A stretch of 64,000 nt of DNA from Adhaeribacter pallidiroseus. GTDB taxonomy: Bacteria; Bacteroidota; Bacteroidia; Cytophagales; Hymenobacteraceae. The position numbers and the translations under genes are program-made. Under the pieces are notes generated by a model that saw only the letters and a program-made list of their open reading frames with translations, did no database searches and was not told the origin of the DNA. Where the stretch lies: NCBI RefSeq assembly GCF_003340495.1, contig NZ_QASA01000001.1, positions 558,001 through 622,000 of the forward strand, in the 5' to 3' direction. Shown here piece by piece: positions 1 through 19,314 of this stretch. Numbering within the stretch: the stretch's first letter is position 1; each line of letters starts with the position of its first letter.

Positions 1-764
1 CGGGCTTGGATGTATTGTATAATTTTTACAAAGTAGGCGACCGTACCGATGCGTATTATTCTTCGTCTTATACCCGGGTAAAAGGCGGCGAGTTCGACGG
101 CCAGATGATCAACGATGCCGGTGGTCGGCCGATTGCTTACCCCCGGTCGCAGTTTTTAGGTAATTCCAACCCGGACTGGGTATGGGGTTTAACCAACCGC
201 TTTAGCTACAAAGGCTTAAATTTTGGCTTCCAGTTCGATGGCCGGGTAGGTGGGGTAATGGTGGATTATGTAAAACGCCAGTCTTTCCGCGGCGGCCGTC
301 ATATTGCTACTACCCAAGGTGCCATGGGCATTGCCCGCGAGCAGGATGTAAAAGGCGTTAAATCGTGGGTAGGCGAGGGCGTGCAGATTGCCAACGGCGC
401 CGATATTAAATACGATCCGGTTACCGGGTTAATCACCAACTACAGTGAACTGCAATTTAAGCGCAACGATACCCCCACCTTTTTGCAGGATTATATCAGC
501 CGGTATCATTCCATCGACGAAGGTGATTTAATCAGTAAAACCTACGCCAAACTACGGGAAGTTACCATTGGCTATTCGCTGCCGGCCAGTATTCTGGGTA
601 AAAGCTTTATTCGCCAGGCGGGCATTACGTTGGTGGGCCGCAACCTGCTGTACTTTGCCAAAGAAAAAGACGTGGATATTGACCAGTACGGCAACAATAA
701 CTACTCTACGCTGCAAACGCCAACCACCCGCCGTTACGGCATTAACCTGAATTTTACTTTTTAA
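1..764 (+). CDS. SusC/RagA-family TonB-linked outer membrane protein, C-terminal part
   Basis: This is the last 250 or so residues of a SusC-type TonB-dependent outer membrane channel; the gene begins before the window and is read in frame from base 3. What is visible is the end of the 22-strand barrel: alternating aromatic strands (NPDWVWGLTNRFSYKGL), the typical late segment LREVTIGYSLPAS, then GRNLLYFAK and a terminal strand ending in NLNFTF with a C-terminal aromatic residue, the usual barrel-end signal. SusC channels import ligands held by a SusD lipoprotein lid, and a SusD-like gene follows after 77 bases on the same strand, so the two form one transcription unit. The ligand cannot be read from this fragment. 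The phosphoesterase gene at 3011 hints at a phosphorylated compound, which is inference. Confidence 0.93.
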   Translation, partial: GLDVLYNFYKVGDRTDAYYSSSYTRVKGGEFDGQMINDAGGRPIAYPRSQFLGNSNPDWVWGLTNRFSYKGLNFGFQFDGRVGGVMVDYVKRQSFRGGRHIATTQGAMGIAREQDVKGVKSWVGEGVQIANGADIKYDPVTGLITNYSELQFKRNDTPTFLQDYISRYHSIDEGDLISKTYAKLREVTIGYSLPASILGKSFIRQAGITLVGRNLLYFAKEKDVDIDQYGNNNYSTLQTPTTRRYGINLNFTF

Positions 765-841: not shown

Positions 842-2415
842 ATGACACGCTATATCACGAAATCATTTTATTGTTTACTCGCACTAAGCCTGGCACTGTT
901 TACCACCAGCTGTGACGATTTTGAGGAACTGGAGAAAAACCCGAACCGGCCCAGCACGGTACCCGCTTCTTTGGTATTTAACGGCTTACTCAACGATATG
1001 TCCGAAGGAGCCTGGAACAGTACCCAGCAGTATAATCAGTTCTGGGCCAGTAATTACAATTATTACAGCAACCAGGAATACACCTGGACGACCACGGGTT
1101 TAAATTATTTTACCCTGAAAAACGTGGCCAAGATGGAAGAAGAAGCCATTCGCAACGGCGCCGAAGCAATAAATCCGTACGCGGCCTTAGGTAAATTTTT
1201 CCGGGCTTATTTCTTCGTGAACATGACCCAGCGCGTGGGAGATGTTCCTTTAATGGATGCTCTAAAAGGCATTGATAATGTGAGCCCCCGGTACGACTCG
1301 CAAAAAGCCGTGTACCTGCAAGCTTTGCAATGGCTCGAAGAAGCGAATACCGAATTAACCAGCCTGATTGCGGCTGGTAATAACACGTTGAGCGGCGATA
1401 TTTACTTTGGCAACGATTTGCAGAAGTGGCAAAAAGTAGTGAATACCTACAAAATGCGCGTGCTGATCAGTTTGAGTAAAAAGAAAACGACCCCGAACTA
1501 AACATAAAACAAAGATTTGCCGCCACGCTCGCCGACCCGGCCAAGTACCCCCTGATGACGGCCCTGACCGATAACATGCAATACGTGTATAATACGTCGG
1601 TGAATAAATACCCCTTAAACCCCGACGAATTCGGCAAAACGGCTTTGCGCAACAACATGACCGCCGCCATTATTACCCCATTGCGCGAACTCAAAGATCC
1701 GCGCTTATTCGTGTACTCCGAGCCCGCTCCGGCCAAAGTGGCTGCTGGTTTAAGCCCCTTGAATCACCAGGCTTATCAGGGCGCTCCTTCCGACGAAGGT
1801 CTGGATGATATGTCCACGAAAGTACAGGCGGGTCAATATTCGCTTATTAACCGTTACCGCTACTACGGTACCTACATCGGCGAACCTACCATTCAGATTG
1901 GTTACCCCGAACTTTGCTTTAACATTGCCGAAGCATTAAACCGCGGCTGGGCTACCGGCAGCGCCGAAGAATATTACACCAAAGGCATTCAGGCTTCGCA
2001 AAATTTTTACGGGATTAAAGAAGGCGATAACAGCGTGTTTTTTTTAAAAAAAGACGGGAAAATTGGTGAATACGATACGTATGCTTTAAAATTTAACTTC
2101 ACGGATTATTACGCGCAGCCCAGCGTAAAATACGCCGGCAACAACGCAGAAGGCTTAGAGCAGGTGCTCACGCAAAAATACATGGCCTTTTTCCAAAATT
2201 CCGGCTGGGAAGCTTTCTATAATCACCGCCGCACGGGCATTCCTAAATTTGATGTAGGCGGCCCCGGCACCGGTGGAGGCCGCACCAGTTTACCGCTGCG
2301 CTGGCAATATCCCGACAACGAGCGTAGCACTAACGCCGCTAATTATACCGAAGCCATCAAACGCCAGTTCAACGGCCAGGATGACGTAGACGCCGTGATG
2401 TGGTTGCTGCAGTAA
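842..2415 (+). pseudogene. SusD-like lipoprotein (SusD-like_2 type), interrupted by a -1 frameshift
   Basis: The two halves of one SusD homologue lie in different frames: 842-1501 (219 residues) and a second part read open to 2415. The first half has a lipoprotein signal ending TTSC followed by DDFEELEKNPN, typical of the SusD-like_2 family. The reading frame breaks at an A5 run (1478-1482). Adding one A gives a continuous SLSKKENDPELNIKQ, exactly the expected helix, and the product would be about 524 residues. The protein would be the surface lid of the SusC channel just upstream. The second half has the characteristic late segments EALNRGWATG and YMAFFQNSGWEAFYNHRRTG. Either the base is missing from the assembly or the gene is recently broken; I favour the former because the rest is intact. 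Confidence 0.9.
1478..1482 (+). other. Frameshift site (A5 run) in the SusD-like gene
   Basis: Five A residues follow AGT. With six A residues the upstream and downstream frames join without a stop and give conserved SusD sequence. With five, translation ends at TAA 1499-1501. Confidence 0.85.
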
Positions 2416-3010: not shown

Positions 3011-4123
3011 ATGAATAACCGCCTTATATTATTATCACTTCTCTTATTAACCTTAACTGTAAATTCTCAAGCGCAAAAACTTAAAACCGAAAACGTAGTA
3101 CTGATTACCCTGGATGGCATGCGCTGGCAGGAGGTGTTTAACGGGGCCGATTCTACTTTATTTAAGCAGCAAAAAGTTTTCAAAGGACCCAATGGCCAGG
3201 CCGAAGTTTTTGCGAAAAATACGCCGGAAGAACGCCGGCAAGCGTTAATGCCATTTTTGTGGAGCGAAATTGCCACCAAAGGCCAGATTTACGGGAACCG
3301 CAAGTACAACAACAAGGTAAATGTAACCAACGATCAATGGTTTTCTTACCCAGGCTACAACGAGATTTTAACCGGTTTTGCCGATAAGCGGGTAAACAGC
3401 AACGATAAAAATTATAATGCCAATACTACGGTACTGGAGTACATCAATAAGCAACCAAACTTTGCCGGCAAAGTAGCGGCTTTTGCCTCCTGGGAAGTTT
3501 TCCCGTACATCGTTAACGACAAGCGCAGCAACATTCCGGTAAGCGCCGGCATGCAGCCCGCTACCGGAACCAACTTAACCGAAACCGAAAAAACCTTAAA
3601 CGAGTTGATGCCGCGGGTGCCTAATCCGCTCGGCGAAATTCGGCTGGACGCTTTTACCTTTCAATACGCCCTGGCGCACGTAAAAAAAGCTCGGCCGCGG
3701 GTATTATTCCTGGCCTTCGACGAAACCGATGATTTTGCCCACCAGGGTGAATACGGCGCTTACTTGCACGGTGCCCGCAATGCTGATTACTTTATCCAAC
3801 AGCTCTGGCAGTATATGCAAACCGATGAGCAATACCGCAATAAAACTACTTTTATCATTACCACGGACCATGGTCGGGGAGCAGCGGCTAACGGAACCTG
3901 GAAAGATCACGGCCAAAAAGTAAACGGCGCCGACGAAATCTGGCTGGCGGTTCTGGGTCCGGATACGCCGGCAACCGGCGAAGTAAAAGCGGCTAGTCAG
4001 TTGTACCAGAACCAGGTAGCTAGTACTTTGGCTACGCTGTTAGGTCTTTCTTACACCAATACTCCCAAACCCGGCGGCGCCATAAATTCGGCGTTTGCTG
4101 CTCCAATCCGGGCGAACCGGTAA
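3011..4123 (+). CDS. Secreted alkaline-phosphatase-superfamily phosphoesterase
   Basis: A 370-residue enzyme of the alkaline phosphatase / nucleotide pyrophosphatase / sulfatase fold, with a signal peptide (residues 1-21, cut after SQA), so it acts in the periplasm or outside. Visible metal-site residues are D35 in LITLDGM, D237 and D240/H244 in FDETDDFAH, D286-H287 in TTDHGRG and H300 in KDHGQK. S112 in FSYPGYNEIL is at the place of the catalytic nucleophile. The family hydrolyses phosphate mono- or diesters; the exact substrate is not readable and a sulfatase or mutase-like role is less likely. It follows a SusC/SusD pair on the same strand but beyond a terminator and a gap of about 600 bases, so it probably has its own promoter. 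I infer that it releases phosphate from an organic ester imported or captured by that pair. Confidence 0.85.
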   Translation: MNNRLILLSLLLLTLTVNSQAQKLKTENVVLITLDGMRWQEVFNGADSTLFKQQKVFKGPNGQAEVFAKNTPEERRQALMPFLWSEIATKGQIYGNRKYNNKVNVTNDQWFSYPGYNEILTGFADKRVNSNDKNYNANTTVLEYINKQPNFAGKVAAFASWEVFPYIVNDKRSNIPVSAGMQPATGTNLTETEKTLNELMPRVPNPLGEIRLDAFTFQYALAHVKKARPRVLFLAFDETDDFAHQGEYGAYLHGARNADYFIQQLWQYMQTDEQYRNKTTFIITTDHGRGAAANGTWKDHGQKVNGADEIWLAVLGPDTPATGEVKAASQLYQNQVASTLATLLGLSYTNTPKPGGAINSAFAAPIRANR

Positions 4124-4200: not shown

Positions 4201-4473
4201 AGAATCAACCACCCCTAACCCCTCCTTATCCAAGGAGGGGAGCTTTTTTTAATTTCTATTTCATTATAGCTTAGACAATTATAAACCAAGGTTACTTCTT
4301 CACCTTTTTACTTATAATTAAAAATTAACGGTTGCTAGATAGATAATCTGGGCAAGTCACGGAAGTAAATCCGCGCCATGGTGTTCAATTATTCACATTA
4401 ATGGTAAAGGGCATTTGGTACCTGGTAAATTCCCAAAAGCTCCCCTCCTGTTTTAGGAGGGGCAGAGGTGGTA
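4201..4473. repeat. Inverted GC-rich hairpin doublet (REP/MITE-like), copy A
   Basis: Two copies of one hairpin repeat face each other. The left unit has CCCCTCCTT, loop, AAGGAGGGG (4219-4240) followed by AGCTTTTTTT. The right unit (4436-4473) has CCCCTCCT, loop, AGGAGGGG (4442-4462) followed by CAGAGGTGGT and is the reverse complement of the left, including the flanking ACCACC and AGCTTTT. About 200 AT-rich bases lie between. The left hairpin plus its T tract may also terminate the phosphoesterase transcript. A second doublet of the same layout lies at 15668-15890. The rest of this 421-base gap shows nothing else. Confidence 0.75.
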
Positions 4474-4544: not shown

Positions 4545-5303
4545 TTAAAAATTTACTTCGGCAACGGGCAATTTTACCATCAGATGGTTCTTTTTTAAAT
4601 ATTGGTGCACGGCGGTTAAAGAAGGAAATAAGCCATTGTTAGGATATTGTTGCAGTTGCTGGTGGGTATGGGTGCCGTTCGTAACGCCAAAACTGGCTGC
4701 GCAGTCAGCGTTTAAACCCGAGGCTAAATCCGAAGGGGTATCGCCAATGTTAACTACTCTTTTGGGATCCGAAATGCCCAGAGTGGCCATGGCTTTCTGG
4801 ATCATTAAGGGACTGGGGCGGCCTTGAGCCACTTCGTCGCTGGCAATGGCTATGGCCAGCAAAGAATTACTAGAACCAATGTAATTCTGGTCTAAACCGA
4901 TGTGCCAGCCGAGTTTTTCCAGAATAATATTGGTTACCCGGCGGTAAAAGCCGGTTGTTAAAGCAATTTTAACTTGCTGTTTTTTTAAAAAGTCAAACAG
5001 TTCCAAACAACCTTCCGTTGGTTTTACCGGGTGATTTTGGTAATGGTGTTCCAGAATAGATTTAAAAACCTGGTAGGAGTGTTCTACTTTATCCTGGAGG
5101 GCTGCTGGGTGTTCGTTGGTTTGTTCTTGCCAGAGCATCTCGAAAACCGCTCTTTTGGCCATGCCTTGTACCGCTAATATGCGTTCTTCGGTGGCGAGTA
5201 AGCCGGTTTGCCGGGCAGCCTCGGCAAAGCAGGATTCTACTTCTTTATGATCCTGCACCGTTGTACCGGCCATATCAAACACCAATAATTGGATGGGTTC
5301 CAT
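4545..5303 (-). CDS. Phosphonatase-like (PhnX-like) HAD hydrolase
   Basis: A 252-residue HAD hydrolase of the phosphonatase-like clade (TIGR03351 as I know it). The first motif is FDMAGTTVQD (D10, with the AGT variant in place of DxDxT/V). The cap carries GMAKRAVF, whose K50 sits where phosphonoacetaldehyde hydrolase has its Schiff-base lysine. The later segment GRPSPLMIQKA has the arginine typical of this clade, and the last motif is NIGDTPSDLASG. Such enzymes are expected to cut the C-P bond of a 2-oxoethylphosphonate and release phosphate. The clade is known to sit beside FAD amine oxidoreductases instead of the transaminase PhnW, and that is the case here (6070). It is divergent from the XRE-cupin regulator, 84 bases away, which probably controls it. 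The exact aldehyde (phosphonoacetaldehyde or its 1-hydroxy form) is unknown. Confidence 0.88.
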   Translation of the reverse strand: MEPIQLLVFDMAGTTVQDHKEVESCFAEAARQTGLLATEERILAVQGMAKRAVFEMLWQEQTNEHPAALQDKVEHSYQVFKSILEHHYQNHPVKPTEGCLELFDFLKKQQVKIALTTGFYRRVTNIILEKLGWHIGLDQNYIGSSNSLLAIAIASDEVAQGRPSPLMIQKAMATLGISDPKRVVNIGDTPSDLASGLNADCAASFGVTNGTHTHQQLQQYPNNGLFPSLTAVHQYLKKNHLMVKLPVAEVNF

Positions 5304-5387
5304 GCTGATTTTTTTAAATTTGTTTACTAATATGCACTAAATTTAAGCATAAATTTTATTCACTTTCTGTTATTTAATTATTATCAA
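5304..5387. promoter_or_regulatory. Divergent control region between HAD hydrolase and XRE-cupin regulator
   Basis: An 84-base AT-rich gap separates two divergent start codons. It contains AAATTT-aagcat-AAATTT (5339-5356), a symmetrical pair that could be an operator for the adjacent XRE-family protein, and one copy of the word TTTTTAAATTT (5311-5321). The operator assignment is a guess from position and symmetry only. Confidence 0.35.
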
Positions 5388-5966
5388 ATGATGAAACCCG
5401 ACAAACTTAGCCTGATTGGTATGCGCATTTTGCAGTTAAGAAAAGAAAAAGGTTTGAGTTTACGGGAGCTGGCCCGGCGCAGCAATCTGTCGGCCGGGCT
5501 CATCTCTAAAATAGAAAATTACCGCACTATTCCTTCCTTGCCGGTACTCCTGACCATTGCCGATTCGCTGGAAGTTGATGTAGCCGTTTTGGTTAAAAAT
5601 ATGAATGGCAGCCACCAGTTGCCTTACTTGCTGGTGCGCGAAGGAACTGGGCAAATAGAACCTCGTACCGATTCTAAAGGCTTAATTTATAAATATTTGT
5701 TATCTCAAAACTTAACCAATTTTAATTTGCGGGTTAACGAAGTTATAATAAATGCATACACCCACCGCAAGCCCATATCAACCGATGCCTTGGAGTTAAT
5801 TCACGTACTGGAAGGCCAGGTTACTTATGGGTTAAAAGGCGAAAACGTTACTTTACTGAAAGGCGATACTTTGTATTTCGACGGCATTGTACCGCATTCG
5901 GTTATCAACGAAACCGATTTACCTGCCCGCTTATTTAAAGTTTACCTGATCCGGTCCACGGAGTAA
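5388..5966 (+). CDS. XRE-family transcriptional regulator with C-terminal cupin domain
   Basis: A 192-residue cytoplasmic regulator. Residues about 10-67 form an XRE/Cro helix-turn-helix (LRKEKGLSLRELARRSNLS, then ISKIENYRTIPSLPVLL). Residues about 110-185 form a small cupin barrel (VLEGQVTYGLKGENVTLLKG, then YFDGIVPHSVIN), the usual effector-sensing half of this family. Two ATG codons occur in tandem at 5388 and 5391, so the start is uncertain by one residue. The gene lies between the divergent phosphonatase-like hydrolase and the FAD oxidoreductase it precedes by about 100 bases, so it is the natural local regulator of phosphonate use. Cupin-XRE proteins often sense a small pathway metabolite; the ligand here is not known, and whether it represses or activates cannot be told. 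Confidence 0.88.
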   Translation: MMKPDKLSLIGMRILQLRKEKGLSLRELARRSNLSAGLISKIENYRTIPSLPVLLTIADSLEVDVAVLVKNMNGSHQLPYLLVREGTGQIEPRTDSKGLIYKYLLSQNLTNFNLRVNEVIINAYTHRKPISTDALELIHVLEGQVTYGLKGENVTLLKGDTLYFDGIVPHSVINETDLPARLFKVYLIRSTE

Positions 5967-6069
5967 TTTAACTTACTACACACTAAAATTAACAATAAGA
6001 TAAACGTTTGAAATGTTTACTTATAGGAAACAGTATTAACTTCGTTTTAAAAGAAGCATCCCTATTTAC

Positions 6070-7230
6070 ATGAACCATCAGGCAAAATTTGATTTAATTA
6101 TAGTGGGCGCCGGCGTATTAGGAGCTTTTCACGCGTACTTTGCTTTGCAGCAAGGTTTAAAGGTGTTATTGCTGGAAAAAGATCCACGCCCGACGGAGGC
6201 AACCGTGCGTAATTTCGGGCAAATTGTTCCTTCCGGTATGGCCGATGGGGATTGGTTTACTTACGGTAGAAACAGCCTGGATACGTACAAAAACATTCAG
6301 GCGCAATACGATATTTCTATCAGGCAGAATGGCTCCACGTACGTAGCTTCTTCGGAAATGGAAATGCAGGTACTTCTGGAAAAGCAGCAACAATATCAAG
6401 AGCAGGATTATTCTTGCCAGATATTGACTGCGGCGCAATGCCGGGAGCGCTTGCCGGTTTTAAAAGCAAGCTACTGCGCAGGCGGGTTATTTTTTCCGCA
6501 GGAGGTTACCGCGGAGCCCACTACTTTAATACATCGTTTACTGGAGTTTATGGTAACCCGGTTGAGTTTAGATTACCGGCCCGCTACTCCCATCATAGGC
6601 TGCACCGCCAATGATTCAATTTGCGAAGTGCGGGATGTTTTTAACAATAGTTATACCGCAACGCGGGTAATTATTTGCAGCGGTCGCGATTTTAAATTTT
6701 TGTTCCCCGACGTATTCCGGACGAGTGATTTACAGATTTGTAAACTACAGATGCTGGCTACTTATCCTTTGCCGCAAGTGGTGTTACCCGGTTCTATTTT
6801 AACGGGTTTATCTATCCGGCGGTACTATGCTTTTAAAAGTTGTCCGTCGTACGCGAACCTCAAGCTCGCGGAAGTAGCAGCAGATTTGCAACAATGGGGC
6901 ATTCATATTTTGTTTAAGCAAGCCCAGGATGGTTCTATCATTATTGGCGATTCGCACGAATACGCCGACACAACGGCTTCTCAGGAGTTAGATTACAGCG
7001 TAGAAGATGAAATTAATTCCGCTATTTTGCGGGAGGCGCAGCAAATTTTAGATTTACCGGACTGGCGCATGAAGCGCAGCTGGAACGGGTATTACTCGCA
7101 ATCTAAATCCGCCGAAATCTTTGAACATGTGATTGACCAGAAGATTCATATAGTTACGGGCATCGGGGGCAAAGGCATGACCACTGCCGCTGGCTATGCC
7201 CAGTACCATCTGCAAAGATTAGGATACTAG
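6070..7230 (+). CDS. FAD-dependent amine oxidoreductase of phosphonate loci (TIGR03364-like)
   Basis: A 386-residue DAO-fold flavoprotein. The FAD-binding GAGVLG is at residues 13-18, followed by the acidic end of the second strand, LLLEKDPRP. The segment ATVRNFGQIVPSG and the late GIGGKGMTTAAGYAQ are the hallmarks I associate with the TIGR03364 family, which is known to co-occur with the phosphonatase-like HAD family found at 4545. The expected reaction is oxidative deamination (or demethylation) of an aminophosphonate such as 1-hydroxy-2-aminoethylphosphonate or an N-methyl form, giving a phosphono-aldehyde for the HAD enzyme. No signal peptide is seen, so it is cytoplasmic. It follows the regulator and precedes the PHP gene by 66 bases. 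The substrate remains inferred from context. Confidence 0.85.
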   Translation: MNHQAKFDLIIVGAGVLGAFHAYFALQQGLKVLLLEKDPRPTEATVRNFGQIVPSGMADGDWFTYGRNSLDTYKNIQAQYDISIRQNGSTYVASSEMEMQVLLEKQQQYQEQDYSCQILTAAQCRERLPVLKASYCAGGLFFPQEVTAEPTTLIHRLLEFMVTRLSLDYRPATPIIGCTANDSICEVRDVFNNSYTATRVIICSGRDFKFLFPDVFRTSDLQICKLQMLATYPLPQVVLPGSILTGLSIRRYYAFKSCPSYANLKLAEVAADLQQWGIHILFKQAQDGSIIIGDSHEYADTTASQELDYSVEDEINSAILREAQQILDLPDWRMKRSWNGYYSQSKSAEIFEHVIDQKIHIVTGIGGKGMTTAAGYAQYHLQRLGY

Positions 7231-7296
7231 AGCTAAGCTGGGCAATAATAATTTCCGTAATTTCAACCTTCCGATTTTTAAATTTTTAGAATTTTT

Positions 7297-8160
7297 ATGT
7301 CCTGGACTAATTACCACAGCCATTGTGCGTACTGCGATGGCTCCGACCTGCCGGTAGTTTATGTAGCAGAAGCCATTGCGCAAGGGTTTGCGGCTTATGG
7401 TTTTTCGTCGCATGCACCCATCCCGTTCCCGACTACCTGGAATATGCAAATGGATAAATTGCCTGCTTATGTGGCGGAGATCAAGGCTTTGCGAAACCAG
7501 TATCAAGCACAAATTCAGATTTACGTGGGCCTGGAAGTAGATTTTATTCCGGGGTTAATCGGGCCCAGAAGTAAGTTTATACAAGAGGCCGGTTTAGATT
7601 ACACGGTAGGTTCGGTGCATTTTGTGGATGTTCTGCCGGATGGCCGCCACTGGGAAATAGACAACAAGCCGGCAGTATTTGCGGAAGGTTGGGAGCAAAT
7701 TTTTAAAAAAGACACTCGGGCAGCGGTTACGCGTTATTTTGAATTAACCCGGCAAATGGTGCGCGAGCAATGCCCTACCATTGTGGGCCACCTGGATAAA
7801 ATAAAAATGCAGAATACCAACAGGTTTTATTTTGCCGAAACCGAAGATTGGTACCAGGAAGAAGTTTTAAAAACCCTTCGGGAAATTGCCGCGGCCGGGG
7901 CTATTGTGGAAGTAAATACCCGCGGGCTGTACCAAAACAAAACCACCGAAGTGTACCCCGGCCGGTGGATTTTAGCACAAATGAAGGCGCTGCAAATTCC
8001 GGTAACCATCAATTCGGATGCGCATAAGCCCCGCGAAATAGCGGGTAAGTTTGATTATGCCGCCCAGTTACTCCTGGAAACCGGCTACCAACAAGTACAG
8101 GTATTGCTGAACGGAACCTGGCAGCCAATTAAATTAACTACCGCGGGTATAGGCCGGTAA
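7297..8160 (+). CDS. PHP-domain phosphoesterase (HisK-type histidinol-phosphatase-like)
   Basis: A 287-residue PHP-fold metal-dependent phosphoesterase. Metal ligands are visible at H7 and H9 (YHSHCAYCDG), D14, H39 (SSHAP), in YTVGSVHFV, in GHLDKI and in the final NSDAHKP. This set is typical of HisJ/HisK histidinol-phosphate phosphatases. No other histidine-biosynthesis gene is nearby; instead the gene follows the FAD oxidoreductase by 66 bases on the same strand and faces the PhnZ-like gene. I therefore suspect a phosphate-ester hydrolase that either serves the phosphonate locus or is simply a neighbour. A genuine histidinol phosphatase cannot be excluded. It ends in a TAA beside the small convergent region with palindromes. 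Confidence 0.8.
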   Translation: MSWTNYHSHCAYCDGSDLPVVYVAEAIAQGFAAYGFSSHAPIPFPTTWNMQMDKLPAYVAEIKALRNQYQAQIQIYVGLEVDFIPGLIGPRSKFIQEAGLDYTVGSVHFVDVLPDGRHWEIDNKPAVFAEGWEQIFKKDTRAAVTRYFELTRQMVREQCPTIVGHLDKIKMQNTNRFYFAETEDWYQEEVLKTLREIAAAGAIVEVNTRGLYQNKTTEVYPGRWILAQMKALQIPVTINSDAHKPREIAGKFDYAAQLLLETGYQQVQVLLNGTWQPIKLTTAGIGR

Positions 8161-8335
8161 AATATTAAAATCCATTATTTTTTTGAATGTAGCGCTTGCG
8201 CAAAGTAGCCTTGGAAATTGTTTGTGAAGACACAAACAATGGCGCCGGAATGTTGGTGACGATTACCAAACCCACGGCTCCGCCAATTGCTCATGAGCAA
8301 TGTTTTCCATGCTAACTTTAGCGCAATTTTTTAAA
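8161..8335. terminator. Convergent region with hairpin 8217-8240 and palindrome 8286-8301
   Basis: Two symmetrical elements sit between the convergent PHP and PhnZ-like genes. One is ATTGTTTGTG, loop AAGA, CACAAACAAT (8217-8240), a perfect 10-base stem. The other is the perfect 16-base palindrome ATTGCTCATGAGCAAT (8286-8301). Neither has a strong T tract, so a bidirectional terminator is plausible but not certain. Confidence 0.5.
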
Positions 8336-8911
8336 TTATTGGTTGGCCAGGTGGCGGATAAACATTTCTTTTATTTGCGCTAATTCTACCACTGGCTGAT
8401 CTGTTTCTTTGCCAAGTTCGTCCCAGCGGCGCATCCGGATACTAAGGTTAAACAAGTCATCTTGCTCAAAGGCAGTAGCTTCGGCAGCGGTCATACGGCC
8501 GCCCTGAAACTCCAGGGTTTGCTTGCTGGCTTCGGATAGCTGATTGTAGTATTCCGGGTCTTTAAAGGTAAGGTAGCGTTTGGCGGGCACGTGGCTTTCT
8601 ACTAAGCGCGCTACCCGCTCCGAGAACCCTTTCGAACGCAGAAAATCGGCGCCCACTTTTTCGTGACGGATTACTCCAAAACCATCCATGCTTTCTTCGG
8701 CGCGTTTTTGCTGGCTGCAAATGTGCCCAATGTCGTGTAAGAAAGCGGCCAGAATTACGTCATCGGCGTAGCCTTCCTGCTGCGCCAGCACCGCGCATTG
8801 CGACATGTGTTCGAGTTGCGATACTGGTTCGCCCACGTAATCATCGGCTCCGTGCTGCACGTATAGTTGGATAATTTCTTCGGCAATCGTATTAATTTGT
8901 TCCGGATTCAT
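8336..8911 (-). CDS. phnZ: PhnZ-like HD-domain mixed-valence diiron oxygenase (C-P bond cleavage)
   Basis: A 191-residue HD protein that matches PhnZ almost throughout. The family cleaves (R)-1-hydroxy-2-aminoethylphosphonate with oxygen to glycine and phosphate. All ligands and substrate residues I remember for PhnZ are present at corresponding places: Y25 and E28 (DYVGE), H35 (SQLEH), H59-D60 (LHDIGH), H63, H83 (RHEKVGADFLR), H107 and K111 (SHVPAKRYL), and D164 (RRWDELGK). Length also fits. It is cytoplasmic. It lies 70 bases behind the phospholipase gene on the same strand and converges with the FAD/PHP genes. No PhnY hydroxylase is in the window, so the hydroxylated phosphonate must come from elsewhere or from the environment. 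TmpB-like use of the trimethylated analogue is the main alternative. Confidence 0.88.
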   Translation of the reverse strand: MNPEQINTIAEEIIQLYVQHGADDYVGEPVSQLEHMSQCAVLAQQEGYADDVILAAFLHDIGHICSQQKRAEESMDGFGVIRHEKVGADFLRSKGFSERVARLVESHVPAKRYLTFKDPEYYNQLSEASKQTLEFQGGRMTAAEATAFEQDDLFNLSIRMRRWDELGKETDQPVVELAQIKEMFIRHLANQ

Positions 8912-8981: not shown

Positions 8982-10133
8982 TCACTTTTTTACGGTCACC
9001 GGATTCAGCCGGCAGTACGATTGATCCGGGAAACTAATCTGGTAATCGGATTTAAAATGGGTGCTGGGTAGGTAATAATCGGTGGAAATAATTTGGGCAC
9101 CCGATTTACAGGCGGCCTCGAAAGTCGATTTGTCGTTGCTACGGGCTTCCACGGTATTAGCGTCGGCACGGGTCCGGATTAAATACCCTTTTTTGGCCAA
9201 CTCCTGAATCTTAGCTAAATCTTTCTTCGGATCGTTCAGGATCAGGAAAGCTGCTTCGGGTGTGCCGGGTTCGGCATTGGCAAATAAAACACGGCCTTGT
9301 AAACTTGGGTGGTTTTGAATATAAGTGGCACGTTTGGGACCAGTTTCGTCCAGGATAAAAACAAACTTGCCTTTAGCAGTGCCTACCTTAGGCCAACCTT
9401 TTTGCAGGATAGCAGTTTCCAGCGTCTTACTTTTTCCTCTTACCATATCCGGTGTAAGCAATTTTTCGCTTCCTAAATTATCCTGAATGGTTTTATCCAG
9501 TAAGTCGTACACCTCCGCCGTAAATTTTTCGGGAATGGTAAAACCAGGTTTGCTCAGCGCTTCGTCTTTGGCGTTTACGGTAATAAAAACGGGTAAATGG
9601 TTCGGGTGCTTTTCTGACCAGCTTTTGAGTTCCTGCAAACAGTTTTTAAAGGTTAAGCAATTACTCCGGAAATCAATATCCTGAATGTGCATTACTTTAA
9701 AGCCCGGTTCTCTCATTATTCCTTCTGGATCAAAGGGTTTTACTTGTCCAGCCGTTGACCATTCCAAACCTTTCGGATTGGCGTATTTGCTGCCTTTCAC
9801 ATCTGCGTAAATATCAATTTCCAGGTTCAGCAAACCGCGGTCGAGTTGCTCCGATAAACTTAAATGGCTGTAATCAATGGCTTTTACCAGCGTAGAATCT
9901 GCTTTTTTGAGCATTTGGTAAACCGGCGGATCTAAGGGCTGTTTGTAGCTGTTGTGCGAGCCAATCACCTGAATTTGATTTAACGGCAGGTTATCCGCAG
10001 AAGGAACATCTACTAAATATTTTTTGTGATTTACAAGGGAAGTGGCTTGTATTAAGTGGTTTTCTTTTGGTGGAGTTAAGCCAAAGCTCCCAATAGCACT
10101 AGTAAGAATTAGCGACCAAGCAATATTTTTCAT
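8982..10133 (-). CDS. Secreted phosphatidylinositol-specific phospholipase C (Ca2+-dependent PI-PLC-C1 type)
   Basis: A 383-residue exported enzyme; residues 1-20 look like a signal peptide. The core is a PI-PLC TIM barrel of the bacterial Ca2+-dependent type. H60 lies in QVIGSHNSYK; E105 and D107 lie in LNLEIDIYAD, the presumed calcium site; H149 lies in KVMHIQDIDF; and FVFILDETG follows. The predicted action is removal of the head group from a phospholipid outside the inner membrane. It stands downstream of a SusC/SusD pair and 70 bases upstream of the PhnZ-like gene, all on one strand. A phosphonolipid or sphingophosphonolipid substrate is therefore an attractive but unproven idea. A weak hairpin terminator lies between SusD and this gene. 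Confidence 0.87.
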   Translation of the reverse strand: MKNIAWSLILTSAIGSFGLTPPKENHLIQATSLVNHKKYLVDVPSADNLPLNQIQVIGSHNSYKQPLDPPVYQMLKKADSTLVKAIDYSHLSLSEQLDRGLLNLEIDIYADVKGSKYANPKGLEWSTAGQVKPFDPEGIMREPGFKVMHIQDIDFRSNCLTFKNCLQELKSWSEKHPNHLPVFITVNAKDEALSKPGFTIPEKFTAEVYDLLDKTIQDNLGSEKLLTPDMVRGKSKTLETAILQKGWPKVGTAKGKFVFILDETGPKRATYIQNHPSLQGRVLFANAEPGTPEAAFLILNDPKKDLAKIQELAKKGYLIRTRADANTVEARSNDKSTFEAACKSGAQIISTDYYLPSTHFKSDYQISFPDQSYCRLNPVTVKK

Positions 10134-10282
10134 TCGAATAAGTCTTGAGAGTAAAGGTTTTTGTTTAACTGATTTTTAAAAAAAGTATTAAGACAGCGAC
10201 CCTGTTTTGGGTAAGGTAATCTAATTTTTCACTTGGAGTAAACCTGATTTTACTGATGTGATAACTAAATTAAAAAAGAAAC

Positions 10283-10315
10283 AAACCCGGCAAGTTTCCA
10301 AAATCTGCCGGGTTT
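10283..10315 (-). terminator. Terminator after the second SusD gene
   Basis: AAACCCGGCA (10283-10292) pairs with TGCCGGGTTT (10306-10315). Read on the minus strand it is followed by GTTTCTTTTTTAATT, a T-rich tail. It lies 26 bases past the SusD stop and may attenuate, not abolish, reading into the phospholipase gene. The remaining bases 10134-10282 look plain. Confidence 0.8.
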
Positions 10316-10340
10316 AAGCCACGATTAAAGCACTTTAGGA

Positions 10341-12107
10341 TTAATATCCTTGGTTTTGCACTAAGAAATCTTCTTCGCTGGAAGCGCCATCAACTGCTCG
10401 TTGCGGAAGCGGGAACAATCTTTTATGGACATCGCCATCGGTCTTCCCGGTCCAGCCGCCTTCGTATTTGCCAAACCGGATTTGATAGTTTCTTCTGAAC
10501 CCTTCCCAGTACAGCTCAAATCCCGATTCCCGGAACAGTACATCCAGGTCAATAGTAGTTAAGGCATCCGGCGTTTGATCCGGGCGGGCATTCCGGGCAG
10601 TTCTTAAGGTATTCACATCCGCTAAAGCCCCGGCATTGTCGCCATTTCTTAACTTGGCTTCTGCCCGCATTAAATAAATTTCTCCCAGGCGAACCAACAC
10701 CAGATCCACACTACTGTAGCTGCAACAATTGGTGGCAGTATGGCTGAACTGGTATTTGGAAAACCGGTAACCGGTATTATGTAAACTTCCCTCCGTAGTA
10801 AAATCAACCTGGCGGGTATGATTAACATATTGGAGGTTGGCGCCACTGGTTCTTCTGTTGATAACGGGATAGATTCTTACTTTACCGTCATCGCATTTGA
10901 GAATATTACCGTTGGCATCTTTTCTAGGACCCCAAATAACACCCCGCAGGATTCCCCGATCCTGTTCAAACGCGGTAGCATCCACGCAGTAGTAATGCTC
11001 CGCATCATTTAAAGGAGTCATGCCGGTAAGATCTTTCAGGTTATCCGGCACCATGGTATTTTTTTTAAAAAAACGGGCATCGGCATCGGCCGGGTCGGTA
11101 TTACCATAAGCATCTACCCAAGTCTGGTAAAAATCAGGAGTAACTGCTACGGCATCTGTGCCCCGGGTATTCGGGAATTCCGGTCGGGGAACCTGATCAC
11201 CGGATATGGACCAATAAGCCCACCGTTGGTGCTCGGTTTCCAATACGCCTCTTTGATCCAGGGCAAAGATAAGTTCCGGATTCGTGTGGTTATTATCACT
11301 AAACAAATCAAAATACTCCGGCGATAAGGCATATGGTCCGGAAATAATATCGTTGGTATATTGGATTACCTTATCCATGTCCGCTTTTCTAAAATCAGGT
11401 TTACCGTAGGGATCGCGGTAAACCGCTGCATTTAAATACAAACGGGCCAAAAAAGCCTTCACCGCTGCCTGGTTTAACCGGGCTGGGTCTTTATCGTTTT
11501 TAATAACATCCACTACCGACAAAAGCTCGCTTTCGAGGTAATCCACGGCTTCTTGCCTTCGAAGAATTTGGGATCTTTCGCTGGAAAGCTCTTTTTTGAA
11601 AACCAGGCCCCAGTTGTCCAGGGCCAGCATATTCAGGTAAGCTTTCATGGCTACCATTTCGTAATAAGCATCCTGCGCACCGGCATTACCCTTTTTAGCT
11701 TCCTGACTTAATCTTTCCGCCGCAATTTGGGCTCTGGATAAAGTTAAGGTTATTTGGGTCCAGGTATCGGTTACCAAACCATTGCTGGGAGTCATTAAAT
11801 GTTGGTGAACCGCAATGAACTTGCCGCCATCGTACCAGTCGGTACCGCCCCGGTAGGGAAGAATGCCTTCATCTGAAGCTACCTCTTGCAAGCCAAAATT
11901 AACCGTGTGCATCCATACCCCCGCCCGGAGAAGACCGTAAACCGGCGCTATGGACCCGCTTACAATTTCCGCCTGGCCGGTTCCGGTTAGTGACTCATCC
12001 AGAACCTCTTCTTCTAAATCAGTACAACCTAAAAAAGTAAATAAAATTACAATTAGAGGTAAGGTTTTATTTAGTCTTATATTTTTCATTTTATTTAAAG
12101 TATTCAC
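10341..12107 (-). CDS. RagB/SusD-family outer membrane lipoprotein
   Basis: A SusD homologue of up to 588 residues. The better start is the second ATG (minus-strand position 12089, residue 7), which places the positive end MKNIRLNK directly before the hydrophobic stretch and the lipobox FTFLGC. TPR-like helices and the usual family segments are visible: WTQITLTLSRAQIAAERL, AYLNMLALDNWG, AFLARLYLNAAVY, and near the C terminus LVLVRLGEIYLMRAEA and RESGFELYWEGFRR. It is the surface-exposed ligand lid for the SusC channel encoded immediately upstream (29-47 bases). The phospholipase and PhnZ-like genes follow downstream, so the cargo may be a phosphorus compound and not a glycan; no glycoside hydrolase is in the window. 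Confidence 0.93.
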   Translation of the reverse strand: MNTLNKMKNIRLNKTLPLIVILFTFLGCTDLEEEVLDESLTGTGQAEIVSGSIAPVYGLLRAGVWMHTVNFGLQEVASDEGILPYRGGTDWYDGGKFIAVHQHLMTPSNGLVTDTWTQITLTLSRAQIAAERLSQEAKKGNAGAQDAYYEMVAMKAYLNMLALDNWGLVFKKELSSERSQILRRQEAVDYLESELLSVVDVIKNDKDPARLNQAAVKAFLARLYLNAAVYRDPYGKPDFRKADMDKVIQYTNDIISGPYALSPEYFDLFSDNNHTNPELIFALDQRGVLETEHQRWAYWSISGDQVPRPEFPNTRGTDAVAVTPDFYQTWVDAYGNTDPADADARFFKKNTMVPDNLKDLTGMTPLNDAEHYYCVDATAFEQDRGILRGVIWGPRKDANGNILKCDDGKVRIYPVINRRTSGANLQYVNHTRQVDFTTEGSLHNTGYRFSKYQFSHTATNCCSYSSVDLVLVRLGEIYLMRAEAKLRNGDNAGALADVNTLRTARNARPDQTPDALTTIDLDVLFRESGFELYWEGFRRNYQIRFGKYEGGWTGKTDGDVHKRLFPLPQRAVDGASSEEDFLVQNQGY

Positions 12108-12136
12108 GGAATAGTAACTGAATCGTTTGTTTTCTT

Positions 12137-15100
12137 TTAGAAAGTTAGATTAACACCCAGCAGAAAGGTTCTGGATCTTGGGTAGGTAAACCGGTCGATA
12201 CCAAAGGTTTGGATACCTCCAGCAGCCGATCCAGTATTCACTTCCGGGTCGAAGCCGGTATAATCGGTAAGCACAAACAAGTTTTGGCCGGTTAGGTTAA
12301 GACTGATGCGCTGGAAAACATTGGCCAGTTTAGTACCGGCTAATTTTACATTATAAGCCAGCGTAGCGTTGTTCAATCGTAAGAATGAGCCATTCTCCAG
12401 ATAACGGGTCGAGACAATATTGGCATTGCTCAACACCTCGTTGGGATACTGCACGGCAAAATCGGTGGCGTTATTGGATTTGGCCAGCAGGGCTTTACTG
12501 AACAGGGTCATGTTCGTGTGATTGTACACCTTATTGCCGGCTACCCCATTAAAGTTTAAACCTAGGTCAAAAGCTTTGTACTTTAGGTTTAGATTATACC
12601 CATAAATAAATTTAGGAATCGCACTGCCTACTACCACGCGGTCATTGTCCAGGATGGCGCCATCGTTATTGGTATCCCGGAAAATGTTTTGGCCCGTTTC
12701 ATTAATGCCATCAAATTGGTACATATAGAAGGCGCCTAGCGGCTCGTTGTTAATATAGCCGTTAATGGTGGCGCCTGTTTGGCCAGCTCCTTGGGCAGCC
12801 CCCGTTGCCAAAACCGAATACGGTGATTCTTTTACCTGATTTTTAATATAAGTGATATTTCCTCCCAAGCTATAAGAAAAGTCGCCTTGGGGATCGCTGC
12901 TGTAATTCAAAGATAACTCGGCTCCATTGTTCTGGATTTTCATGTCCGGAATATTGGTCCAGTAGGTAGAGGTAGGCTGCACCGGATCGGCCGGAACAAC
13001 TTCTAATAATATATTGGATGATTGTTTATTAAAATAATCCAGCGTACCAGACAACCGGGAATTAAAAAGGCAAAATCAATTCCTACATCTACCTGGGTGG
13101 AAACCTCCCATTGTAAATCCGGATTGGCCAGGCGGGTAAAAATAATGCCGTAAGGATAACCTTCTAATGAGGTAGCATTCGGGGCAATAGGATAGGTACT
13201 GGTACTGCCGGTTCCCGTTAATAATCGTTGCTCTAAATAACTGGCTTTGGTGATTTTAGAGGGAATTTCCTGGTTACCGGTCTGGCCCCAGCTGGCCCGC
13301 AGCTTTAAGTTGTTGAAAATGGAATTAGTCATAAAATCTTCGTTGCTGATGTTCCAGCCAGCCGCAAAAGAAGGAAAGTACCCGTACCGGTTATTCTGGC
13401 CAAACTTAGATGAACCATCGGCTCGCAGCGTAGCGGTAAACATGTATTTATTGGCGTAAACGTAGTTTAAGCGGCCGAAGAAAGATTGCAACTCGTTTTT
13501 AATGGCTTCGGAATTTACCGCTGTTGGGAATTGAACGGTACTGGTATGGTCCTGGTAAATAGGATCGATGTTATTATTGGCAAAGCCGCGGTAAGTAGAA
13601 ATCCGGGTTTCATCCATAAATTTCTGGAAAGAATGGCCGGCCAAAACCGTTACGTTGTGCGCATCCTGGTTCCAGTTATAATTAAGCGTATTCTCGATTA
13701 GTTGATTGGTATTCGCGTTTACGCCCGCATCCAGCACCCCATTGGAAATATCGGACTCGTTAATAACGCCCAGAAAAGGTTTGTACTGCTGGTTCCGGTT
13801 AGTAGCCGAATAATCAAGCCCGAAATTTAATTTATAAGTCAGGCCTTTTACTATCTCCAGGGAGGGGGAAACATTGGCCAGAATACGGTTGTTAATAGCA
13901 TTGTCGCTATATAAATTATACCGGGTCAGTGGATTTAAGGCGTTAGTAGGTAATAGGGATGGCACCCCATTCGTATACGCCGGAACCGTGGGGTTCAAAC
14001 TCAGCATATCACTGATGGTGGAGGTAATCTCGGGACGTAAATTCTCGGTGTGGGAGGCCGTAATATTATAATCTATATTTAAGCGGCCATTGAACGCCCG
14101 TTGGTTCATGTTTAATTTTCCGGAATACCGTTTCAGCCGGCTGTTTTTTAAAATTCCTTCCTGATCCTGATAGCCGGCGGATGCGTAGTAGGAGAAATTA
14201 TCCGTGCTGGCGCCGCTCATAGATAAATTATAGTTTTGGGAGATACCTTTTTGAGTCAATTCCTCTTGCCAGTTGGTATTGCCTCCTAAGTCTTGCAAGG
14301 TTCCTCCCACGGCTGCCACTTGTTGGCGAAAAGCGTCCGCATCGAAAACGTCTATTTTTCTGGCTATCGACGACACTGCGGCGGAAGCGGAAAAATTAAC
14401 TTGCGGTTTTCCCTTGCCTTTTTTAGTGGTAATTACAACCACCCCATTGGAGGCTCGGGAACCATATACGGCCGTGGCACTGGCATCCTTCAGCACATCA
14501 ATGCTTTCAATATCGTTGGGGTTGATAAAGTTCAGGGGATTGGTGGGAACTCCCGTGGCAGAATTGTCCAATACAAATCCATCGACTACGTAAAGCGGCT
14601 GCGTTCCGGACCGTAAGCTACCAATACCCCGGATAACGATATCCTGGGTGGCTCCTGGCTCCCCACTATTGGCGGCAATGGAGACACCGGCCAGTTTACC
14701 CTGCAACAATTCGCCGGGGTTGGTTACCACGCCTTTATTAAAACTTTCGCTGTTAACCGAAGCAATGGCCCCCGTAACATCGGACCTTTTTTGGGTACCG
14801 TAACCCACTACCACCACTTCGTTTAATTGCTTGGTATCGGCTTTTAAAGTAATAGCTATTTGGCCGCTGCCTACCACTTGTTCCTGGGCCTGATAACCGA
14901 TCATGCTAAATACCAGCACATCGCCCCGATTCGCCTGTAACCGGAAACTGCCGTTGGCATCGGTGGTGGTGCCTTTGTTGGTATTTTTAATTAAGATAGA
15001 AGCCCCGGGCAAAGCTCCCTGATCATCCCGCACCGTACCAGTAACGGTAATTTCGTCGGTTGTCTGGTACAATGCCGTTGCTGCTTGTTTTGCTAATGCG

Positions 15101-15198
15101 TGGGCTTGCAAGGGAGCCGTGGGCGGCAAACTCAGCAGAAACGCCGTAATAATGGATACGGGAGGTAAGATTTTTACCGGGTAAAGTTTAATCTTCAT
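12137..15198 (-). pseudogene. SusC/RagA-family TonB-linked outer membrane protein, interrupted by a -1 frameshift
   Basis: A full SusC split into 13003-15198 (731 residues) and a C-terminal frame, 12137-13054. Signal peptide, CarboxypepD_reg-like domain (EITVTGTVRDDQGALPGASI), plug (SDVTGAIASVNSESF, then SIDVLKDASATAVYGSRASN) and most of the barrel are intact. The break is at a T5 run on the coding strand (13064-13068). With one more T the sequence reads through as IDFAFFNSRLSGTLDYFN, the standard SusC segment. The repaired protein would be about 1,000 residues and ends with LLGVNLTF. It pairs with the SusD gene that follows. The rest of the gene shows no decay, so a missing base in the assembly is as likely as a real null allele or phase variant. 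Confidence 0.9.
13064..13068 (-). other. Frameshift site (T5 run) in the SusC gene
   Basis: On the coding strand GCC-TTTTT-AATTCC puts the second part out of frame. Six T residues restore a continuous, conserved SusC sequence. Confidence 0.85.
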
Positions 15199-18336: not shown

Positions 18337-19314
18337 ATGTTCGAGTCCATTATTCTTTCGTTAATTGGCGGTTTAACTTTGTTTTTGTACGCGCTGCATT
18401 ATCTGTCCGAGAGCTTAAAATCGGTGGCAGGCGGTAAACTGCAATTTTACCTGAATAAGTTTACGGGCAATTTATTTACCGGCATCGCTTCGGGCACTAT
18501 CATCACAATTTTATTAGATTCTTCTTCGGCCGTGATTATCATGACCATTGCCTTGGTTAAATCGCGGGCGCTTACCTTCCGGCAAGCCATGGGCATTGTA
18601 ATGGGAGCCAATATTGGTACCACTATCTCCAGCCAGATAATTGCTTTAGATGTCGGTAAATATTCGTCGGTGTTAATGGCTATTGGTTTTTTGTTACTAA
18701 TGTTGGCTAAAAAGCGTTTGCCTAAAAACATCGGCCGGGTTTTACTGGGTTTTGGATTAATCTTTTTCGGCTTGTACGTGATAGAAGATTCCGTGGCACC
18801 TCTGCGCCAAAGTCCTGAATTTGCCGGTTGGATGCTGGCTTTGGAAAAGCCGTTAAAAGGAGTAGGAATAGGAGCACTAGTTACCTTAATTATTCAGTCT
18901 TCTTCGGCTACGGTGGGCATGGTAATAGCCTTGGGTGCTAAAAAACTCATTACTATTACTGCTGGCATTGCCGTAATGTTGGGTGCCGAATTAGGTACTT
19001 GCTCCGATACCCTACTGGCCTCTATTGGCCGGAGCCGCCAAGCCGTTAAAACAGGTATATTTCACTTATTTTTTAATATTACTACCATTATCCTGGCCTT
19101 AATTCTCTTTACGCCGTTTGGGCAGTTAGTGCATTACTTATCCGGTGAAGCGCCACTAGAGCGGCAGATTGCGAATGCACATGTGTTATTTAATTGTTTG
19201 GGTGTTTTTATTTATATACCGTTCGTGCCTTTAACCGAACGATTAATTAATTTTGTTATCCCGGAGCAACACCCAACTACGTCGCCAGCCCATCTGGCTA
19301 ATCCCGAGAAATAA
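18337..19314 (+). CDS. Na+/phosphate cotransporter family protein (NptA/PF02690 type)
   Basis: A 325-residue inner membrane protein with two inverted repeats, each carrying the signature of sodium-phosphate cotransporters. First comes TIITILLDSSSAVIIMTIAL with MGANIGTTISSQ, and then LVTLIIQSSSATVGMVIAL with MLGAELGTCSDT. The family moves inorganic phosphate with sodium. Many homologues carry a C-terminal PhoU-like domain of about 200 residues; this one stops after the membrane part, so it is the short form. In the first repeat D replaces the usual Q before SSSA. It stands alone on its strand, downstream of a copy of the 102-base repeat. Together with nearby phosphatases it fits uptake of the phosphate they release. 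Confidence 0.88.
   Translation: MFESIILSLIGGLTLFLYALHYLSESLKSVAGGKLQFYLNKFTGNLFTGIASGTIITILLDSSSAVIIMTIALVKSRALTFRQAMGIVMGANIGTTISSQIIALDVGKYSSVLMAIGFLLLMLAKKRLPKNIGRVLLGFGLIFFGLYVIEDSVAPLRQSPEFAGWMLALEKPLKGVGIGALVTLIIQSSSATVGMVIALGAKKLITITAGIAVMLGAELGTCSDTLLASIGRSRQAVKTGIFHLFFNITTIILALILFTPFGQLVHYLSGEAPLERQIANAHVLFNCLGVFIYIPFVPLTERLINFVIPEQHPTTSPAHLANPEK

Follow-up and report, generated by a model that had tools for sequence, protein, structure and literature searches.

How an aminophosphonate would enter a bacterium equipped to break it down, and whether two enzymatic routes lying side by side serve one such compound or two, are the questions raised by a locus of Adhaeribacter pallidiroseus near the start of the 64,000-nt stretch of contig NZ_QASA01000001.1 analyzed here (the window); our extended version of the locus, L092, reaches left of it. 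The locus encodes a phosphonatase-like HAD hydrolase, an XRE-cupin regulator, a flavin adenine dinucleotide (FAD)-dependent oxidoreductase, a PHP phosphoesterase and a protein resembling the oxygenase PhnZ. These five genes had been named by a first-pass annotation, and both their frames, which run from start to stop without interruption, and hidden Markov model scans agree with it as to their positions. We propose, with a probability of roughly two in three, that they belong to an aminophosphonate utilization island, in which uptake by SusC/SusD, phosphodiesterases (PDE) and a permease is combined with one route through the FAD enzyme and the HAD and another through PhnZ.

Enzymes and uptake genes of the locus

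Family scores and conserved residues bear out the earlier view that the locus cuts carbon-phosphorus (C-P) bonds both oxidatively, through PhnZ, and by deamination followed by hydrolysis, through the FAD enzyme and the HAD. The FAD protein scores 378.7 bits against TIGR03364 (cut-off 285.1), as its first assignment to that family required, and the PhnZ-like protein exceeds the cut-off of TIGR03276 (218.7 versus 214.6 bits). The latter aligns with PhnZ at 49% identity across 166 columns, and the ten positions first named as its ligands (Y25, E28, H35, H59-D60, H63, H83, H107, K111 and D164) indeed align with Y24, E27, H34, H58-D59, H62, H80, H104, K108 and D161 of PhnZ in 4MLM, as numbered by hand from the alignment; the di-iron set H...HD...H...H...D and the YxxE loop are both present. 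Among 57 related proteins (51 different sequences when judged on the final 150 residues), six of the ten positions are conserved throughout; H35 and H83 are each retained in 56, and Y25 and E28 in 55, the other two having gaps there. The HAD has TIGR03351 as its best family (E 1.5e-49). In alignment with PhnX, its D10 falls in the nucleophile column and its K50 in the lysine column (where 2ioh has an arginine), and neither residue varies among the 99 HADs compared from related loci (91 distinct sequences by the same measure); we take them to be the PhnX-type nucleophile and the Schiff-base lysine, respectively. The phosphonatase-like character claimed for this protein is thus supported by the E-value and the two residues but not by the family cut-off, since it scores 168.9 bits where TIGR03351 demands 218.9; a failure of this protein against its family model had been named at the outset as refuting, and it occurs for the cut-off and not for the E-value. 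Against PhnX proper (TIGR01422) it reaches 100.8 bits, with a cut-off of 220. All nine relatives scored likewise fall short of both cut-offs (162-212 bits for TIGR03351).

The unit is larger than the first-pass annotation reported. Within the GTDB family, the FAD enzyme is over cut-off in 22 of 204 genomes, and a TIGR03276 match (E <= 1e-15) is found in the same 22, in 12 of them over cut-off. From the 21 other genomes we examined 15 sister loci (L075-L088 and L095; six genomes were left out), one from the same genus and the rest from another. The HAD, the XRE-cupin regulator, the FAD enzyme, PhnZ, SusC, SusD and one phosphodiesterase (PDE2) occur together in all 15, a further phosphodiesterase (PDE1) in 12, and a GlpT-like permease on 14 of the pieces and elsewhere in the genome for the fifteenth. 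In the typical Hymenobacter order the permease, PhnZ, SusC, SusD, PDE1 and PDE2 lie on one strand, followed by the HAD gene divergent from those of the XRE-cupin regulator and the FAD enzyme. A beta-propeller phosphoesterase (PF04185, scanned in L079) was seen in the three loci that lack PDE1 (L079, L083 and L084), and beside PDE1 in L095.

These flanking genes offer candidate answers to the question of substrate entry, namely SusC/SusD, a phosphodiesterase and the GlpT-like permease. In A. pallidiroseus itself the permease gene lies 3.2 kb left of the window (G000:C1:553485-554753), followed by SusC, a split SusD and PDE1, a gene set of the PusCD type in which SusC and SusD adjoin a phosphodiesterase and a GlpT-like permease. 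The encoded permease is 62% identical to the Hymenobacter protein used as query (L085); the sister permease is a major facilitator superfamily (MFS) protein with GlpT/UhpC/PgtP-type matches, all under their cut-offs, the best in L085 and L077 being to TIGR00881 and the UhpC and GlpT models. AepP, a GlpT relative, is described as carrying 2-aminoethylphosphonate (AEP) (PMC8316502). The N-terminal hydrophobic stretch of PDE1 reads by eye as a signal peptide, and the enzyme is probably exported. Its residues D35, S112, D240, D286, H287 and H300 are kept in 25 of 25 aligned proteins and H244 in 24, presumably in the roles they play across the alkaline-phosphatase superfamily. A model of PDE1 (mean predicted local distance difference test, pLDDT, of 87, falling below 50 at residues 110-112, where the candidate nucleophile sits) matches YejM, LtaP/LtaS, sulfatases and NPP at template-modeling (TM) scores of about 0.5. 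(R)-1-hydroxy-2-aminoethylphosphonate (R-HAEP) is reported from a polysaccharide of Acanthamoeba, and HAEP from lipids of Bdellovibrio stolpii (PMC8154272); such bound forms would make sense of a phosphodiesterase together with SusCD.

The same uptake genes could instead belong to general organophosphorus scavenging. Phosphodiesters would then be the target of SusCD, the phosphodiesterase and the permease, and the task of the C-P enzymes would be limited to detoxifying or salvaging any aminophosphonates imported alongside. Consistent with this, the island extends to a PI-PLC with a second SusD/SusC pair and to phytase-like and phosphatase-like genes read by eye, PDE1 also occurs beside DUF5690 genes (considered below) without C-P enzymes, and the PusCD loci of Flavobacterium are described as targeting organic phosphorus (PMC8115612). 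We consider this unlikely, given that in the sister loci PhnZ directly adjoins SusC/SusD/PDE on one strand, with the HAD, XRE-cupin and FAD genes next to them.

Substrates of the two routes

The central inference of the first-pass annotation was that both routes act on one compound, hydroxy-AEP or an N-methylated relative. PbfD1, an enzyme annotated as TIGR03364, is described as oxidizing N-methyl-AEP, AEP and N,N-dimethyl-AEP to phosphonoacetaldehyde (PMC10590968), and section 16 of PMC8154272 reports that the aldehyde arising from transaminated R-HAEP, tentatively 1-hydroxy-phosphonoacetaldehyde, was not removed by the PhnX tested. The inference is therefore probably wrong, and it appears more likely that two routes serve two compounds, the FAD enzyme and the HAD acting on AEP and N-methyl-AEP and PhnZ on (R)-hydroxy-AEP. 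What survives of the earlier proposal is the N-methylated relative, which the activity of PbfD1 makes a likely substrate of the FAD and HAD route.

We then surveyed 390 genomes of the order, counting PhnZ matches at E <= 1e-25 and taking 25 kb from the FAD gene as near. PhnZ is matched in 89 genomes (41 over cut-off; two interrupted by a stop) and the FAD enzyme is over cut-off in 120; both are present in 88, within 25 kb of each other in 70 of these, and PhnZ stands alone in one. The R-HAEP ammonia-lyase PbfA exceeds its cut-off in 29 genomes, each of which also has the FAD enzyme. Near the FAD gene, PhnZ occurs in 70 genomes and PbfA in 20, with both in none; on the scale of whole genomes they show no mutual exclusion (Fisher p 0.5). 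The FAD enzyme is found without PhnZ in 32 of its 120 genomes, 21 of which have PbfA. As 19 of the 20 genomes with PbfA near the FAD gene share one genus label (g58), the alternation amounts to few independent events. It repeats a pattern reported in PMC8154272, where none of the phnWX and phnWAY clusters of Table 1 has both PhnZ and PbfA. The alternation near the FAD gene fits an action of PhnZ on hydroxy-AEP and of the FAD enzyme and the HAD on something else. We also collected loci of named relatives, keeping 80 of 449 found, of which 58 span at least 20 kb; with 10-kb flanks the counts are lower bounds, and these 58 hold at least 51 HAD, 23 PhnZ and 0 PbfA matches, and at least 34 SusC, 29 SusD, 21 PDE1, 46 DUF5690 and 1 GlpT-like, which at 40% identity and 70% coverage become 20, 21, 20, 38 and 0, respectively. 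Because such flanks miss some PhnZ genes, the 17 changes of PhnZ label on the FAD tree (86 rows, 76 of them in the clade of the window's enzyme and mostly recruited by similarity to it) were not read as a tally of gains and losses.

The model in which the FAD enzyme deaminates hydroxy-AEP or its N-methyl form, the HAD cuts hydroxy-phosphonoacetaldehyde and PhnZ acts on the same compound draws support from the divergence of the FAD and HAD proteins of this clade and from the rarity of PhnZ without the FAD enzyme (88 of 89 genomes have both), which makes related substrates likely; we nonetheless regard it as improbable in view of the PbfD1 substrates, the aldehyde left uncut by PhnX and the 32 genomes with the FAD enzyme only. 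That the PhnZ-like protein acts on another hydroxyphosphonate, either trimethyl-hydroxy-AEP, as TmpB, or hydroxymethylphosphonate, as GmPhnZ1, is very doubtful: the same iron motif and YxxE loop are described for TmpB in PMC8177086, and the TmpB and GmPhnZ1 models give the protein 144 and 119.7 bits, but these scores lie far below the cut-off of 300, PhnZ is the closest solved relative (166 bits, against 113 for TmpB), and PhnZ alternates near the FAD gene with an enzyme of R-HAEP.

Searches of the whole A. pallidiroseus genome covered PhnW, PbfA, PF12974 and PhyH, and not TIGR01422, the phosphonoacetaldehyde dehydrogenase PhnY, PhnA or C-P lyase. PhnW, already noted as missing from the locus, is nowhere over cut-off (best TIGR03301 score 49.8, cut-off 360.8). 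This absence had been called unusual, which it is not, because PhnW-less PbfD2-PhnX pathways have been proposed, with PbfD2 as the stand-in for PhnW in some bacteria (PMC10590968). No PbfA was found at E <= 1e-130, and the sole PF12974 match is an SsuA-like protein rather than PhnD. PhnY* is the dioxygenase that partners PhnZ in the PhnY*-PhnZ pathway, though PhnZ itself can do without it. No PhnY* was recognized among the four unlinked PhyH proteins, three of which have no NCBIfam match at E <= 1e-6, while one scores 43.3 of the 500 set for a PhnY-type model; the best-scoring of the four was compared with solved structures, and those closest to it are SnoK, SnoN and MysH.

From the computed genes, residues, conserved neighborhood and co-occurrences we would predict the substrates, the export of PDE1 and PDE2, the order of steps and the regulation of the island as follows. 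SusC/SusD would take esterified or free aminophosphonates, such as head groups of phosphonoglycans or phosphonolipids, through the outer membrane, periplasmic PDE1 and PDE2 would free the aminophosphonate, and the GlpT/AepP-like permease would transfer it to the cytoplasm. The PbfD-type FAD enzyme would then oxidize N-methyl-AEP and AEP to phosphonoacetaldehyde, which the HAD would split via a Schiff base on Lys50 into acetaldehyde and phosphate; in parallel, PhnZ would split R-HAEP, presumably imported rather than made since no PhnY* was recognized, into glycine and phosphate. Control of the divergent promoter between HAD and XRE-FAD probably falls to the XRE-cupin protein.

Several observations weigh against this utilization island. 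The HAD is below both PhnX-type cut-offs, and the FAD tree places the window's enzyme in a clade set off from the other TIGR03364 clade by two very long branches, 2.07 and 1.83 changes per column; as we know of no assay within it, the substrates proposed here are borrowed from assayed relatives. PhnZ is not near the FAD gene in 18 of 88 genomes (on another contig in 11, further off in 7), and the eight genomes that have PbfA as well as PhnZ keep the two on different contigs or separated by 39 kb or more. On the uptake side, SusCD genes are common in the phylum Bacteroidota, the SusC match obtained in 34 of the long named loci attains 40% identity across 70% of the SusC length in only 20, and the SusD of A. 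pallidiroseus itself reads as broken. PDE1 adjoins DUF5690 without any C-P enzyme seen in L290 and L293 and is hence not phosphonate-specific.

Layout, regulation and surrounding genes

Table 1. Features of the A. pallidiroseus locus in window coordinates.
Feature	Position	Strand	Evidence
SusC, 3' end (TonB-dependent outer-membrane channel)	1..764	+	homologue in 15/15 sister loci
SusD-like lipoprotein (PF12771), split into 842-1501 and 1555-2415	842..2415	+	frames, Pfam, sister alignment
PDE1, alkaline-phosphatase-superfamily phosphodiesterase	3011..4123	+	Pfam, conserved residues, structure model
Terminator-like hairpin with T run, 3' of PDE1	4219..4240	+	consensus scan
PhnX-like HAD hydrolase, predicted phosphonoacetaldehyde hydrolase (D10, K50)	4545..5303	-	HMM, alignment
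Operator-like motif GTTTACTAATATGCACTAAAT, between HAD and XRE-cupin	5322..5342	+	motif scan, sister loci
XRE-cupin regulator	5388..5966	+	HTH_3 and Cupin_2 matches (Pfam)
FAD oxidoreductase, TIGR03364 (PbfD kind)	6070..7230	+	NCBIfam, tree
PHP phosphoesterase, HisJ family	7297..8160	+	TIGR01856
PhnZ-type HD-domain di-iron oxygenase	8336..8911	-	TIGR03276, alignment to PhnZ

The whole SusC gene (L092:7513-10764, 1083 aa) starts 2.5 kb left of the window. By alignment the SusD gene is one base short relative to its sister gene, with the gap at 1477; in sister locus L075 it forms a single 524-aa frame. Two further genes near the locus likewise read as two frames each, a second SusC and L092:537-2029, by eye a purple acid phosphatase, and all three splits are due either to genuine decay or to wrong bases in the assembly. 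Terminator-like hairpins number 5 in the stretch against 7.5 expected from shuffles, which makes their number no evidence, and no RNA family of Rfam reached its gathering score in window 1-30000.

The XRE-cupin identity given earlier to the regulator agrees with its Pfam matches. Upstream of it, the motif GTTTACTAATATGCANNAAAT has one match in the window, where 0.03 are expected, and recurs with at most 3 mismatches at the HAD/XRE-cupin promoter in 12 of 14 sister loci tested, a recurrence that is partly circular because the motif was derived from these same loci. It is a candidate operator; no further copy within 3 mismatches occurs in L092, and so none precedes SusC.

The PHP protein is, as first named, a phosphoesterase of this kind (TIGR01856, HisJ family, 159.3 bits over a cut-off of 90.2). 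We rejected it as a core enzyme since it is present in one of the 15 sister loci, that of the same genus, and in 4 of the 58 long named loci. HisJ-family PHP genes recur in phosphonate or DUF5690 loci (L075, L154, L164, L168, L228, L233, L236, L266, L271, L280 and L295). The PI-PLC at 8982-10133 was likewise rejected as part of the unit, with a match in none of the 58. It belongs to a minus-strand run at window 8982-15198 of PI-PLC (PF16670), SusD and SusC, the second SusC of the locus lying at 12137-15198; this is possibly a second phosphorus module like the PUSI locus of Flavobacterium, whose table includes pf16670 (PMC8115612). Read by eye, a Na/phosphate-transporter-like gene (18337-19314), a TonB receptor (20584-23718), an alkaline-phosphatase-like gene (27548-29629) and a phytase-like gene (L092:2181-3293) lie further out, giving the region (window 17-30 kb and L092:537-3293) the appearance of a phosphorus island.

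DUF5690 and relation to known systems

The survey also drew attention to DUF5690 (PF18943), found in 119 of the 390 genomes (e.g. L165:6942-8309 and L223:7386-8687), often next to the aminophosphonate enzymes where the GlpT-like permease is missing; in the A. pallidiroseus genome it was not found at E <= 1e-40. The FAD enzyme is present in 99 of the 119 genomes, in 86 within 25 kb of DUF5690, at a median of 3.3 kb. Its structure model (mean pLDDT 89.7) has the MFS fold, and the best two PDB matches are human SLC37A4/G6PT (TM 0.64-0.72); as many other MFS proteins match at similar E-values, the fold is supported and the substrate is not. DUF5690 and the GlpT-like permease gave no match in a profile comparison (probability 0.6%, with one of the 15 rows of the permease profile, L083, in the wrong frame), and agree only in predicted fold; a search of PDB sequences with the profile of DUF5690 yielded nothing at E <= 0.1, and we found no mention of the family in the literature searched. 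Nor is it strictly bound to phosphonates: in 8 of 12 FAD-less loci inspected, drawn from 12 of the 20 such genomes, no phosphonate or phosphoesterase query matches beside it (one of the eight has a distant partial SusC match), and across the 12 it adjoins PDE1 twice, and a beta-propeller phosphoesterase and PHP once each.

A wider reading, which we hold tentatively and on balance rather doubt, is that Bacteroidota possess a dedicated surface-to-cytoplasm system for esterified aminophosphonates, composed of SusCD, a phosphodiesterase, an MFS permease (GlpT-like in Hymenobacteraceae, DUF5690 elsewhere) and exchangeable cytoplasmic C-P cutters, with DUF5690 as a new family of organophosphorus permeases; the esterified sources might then be phosphonoglycans or phosphonolipids from organisms such as amoebae or predatory bacteria.

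The enzymes belong to established types, but their wiring to uptake genes has seldom been described. The closest parallel is the PbfD2-PhnX pathway of Mariniblastus fucicola, proposed in PMC10590968 as a PhnW-less oxidation of AEP and N-methyl-AEP to phosphonoacetaldehyde followed by HAD hydrolysis, steps here predicted; in contrast, our HAD is below the PhnX cut-offs, our FAD enzyme belongs to a clade in which we know of no assayed member, and the locus adds PhnZ and SusCD. Achromobacter clusters of PhnX, HpnW (the NCBI name for TIGR03364) and PhnHD (TIGR03276) contain the same three enzymes, HpnW taking the place of PhnW, but these are proteobacterial, their PhnHD is 30% identical to PhnZ as opposed to the 49% seen here, and SusCD goes unmentioned in the part of PMC11203657 available to us. 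The Flavobacterium PusCD phosphate-utilization loci share SusCD beside phosphonate genes, though the available part of PMC8115612 leaves their phosphonate enzymes unspecified, whereas those of our locus are specified and linked to PhnZ and a PbfD-type enzyme. AepP of Pseudomonas putida is a GlpT-related MFS permease for 2-AEP, co-localized with aminophosphonate genes in other strains (PMC8316502); our permease is likened to it through GlpT-type matches rather than by direct sequence comparison, and its substrate is predicted. Judging papers other than those cited by titles and the openings of abstracts, we recognized no publication describing a SusCD-PDE-permease-PbfD-PhnZ unit.

The island suggests how hydroxy- and N-methyl-aminophosphonates are likely to enter cells of a phylum in which, according to PMC8115612, plant-associated members lack the common organic-phosphorus transporters. 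It argues against a single compound shared by both enzyme routes, and turns what was a list of enzymes into a whole pathway that can be tested. If the wider reading were true, it would also offer DUF5690 a function.

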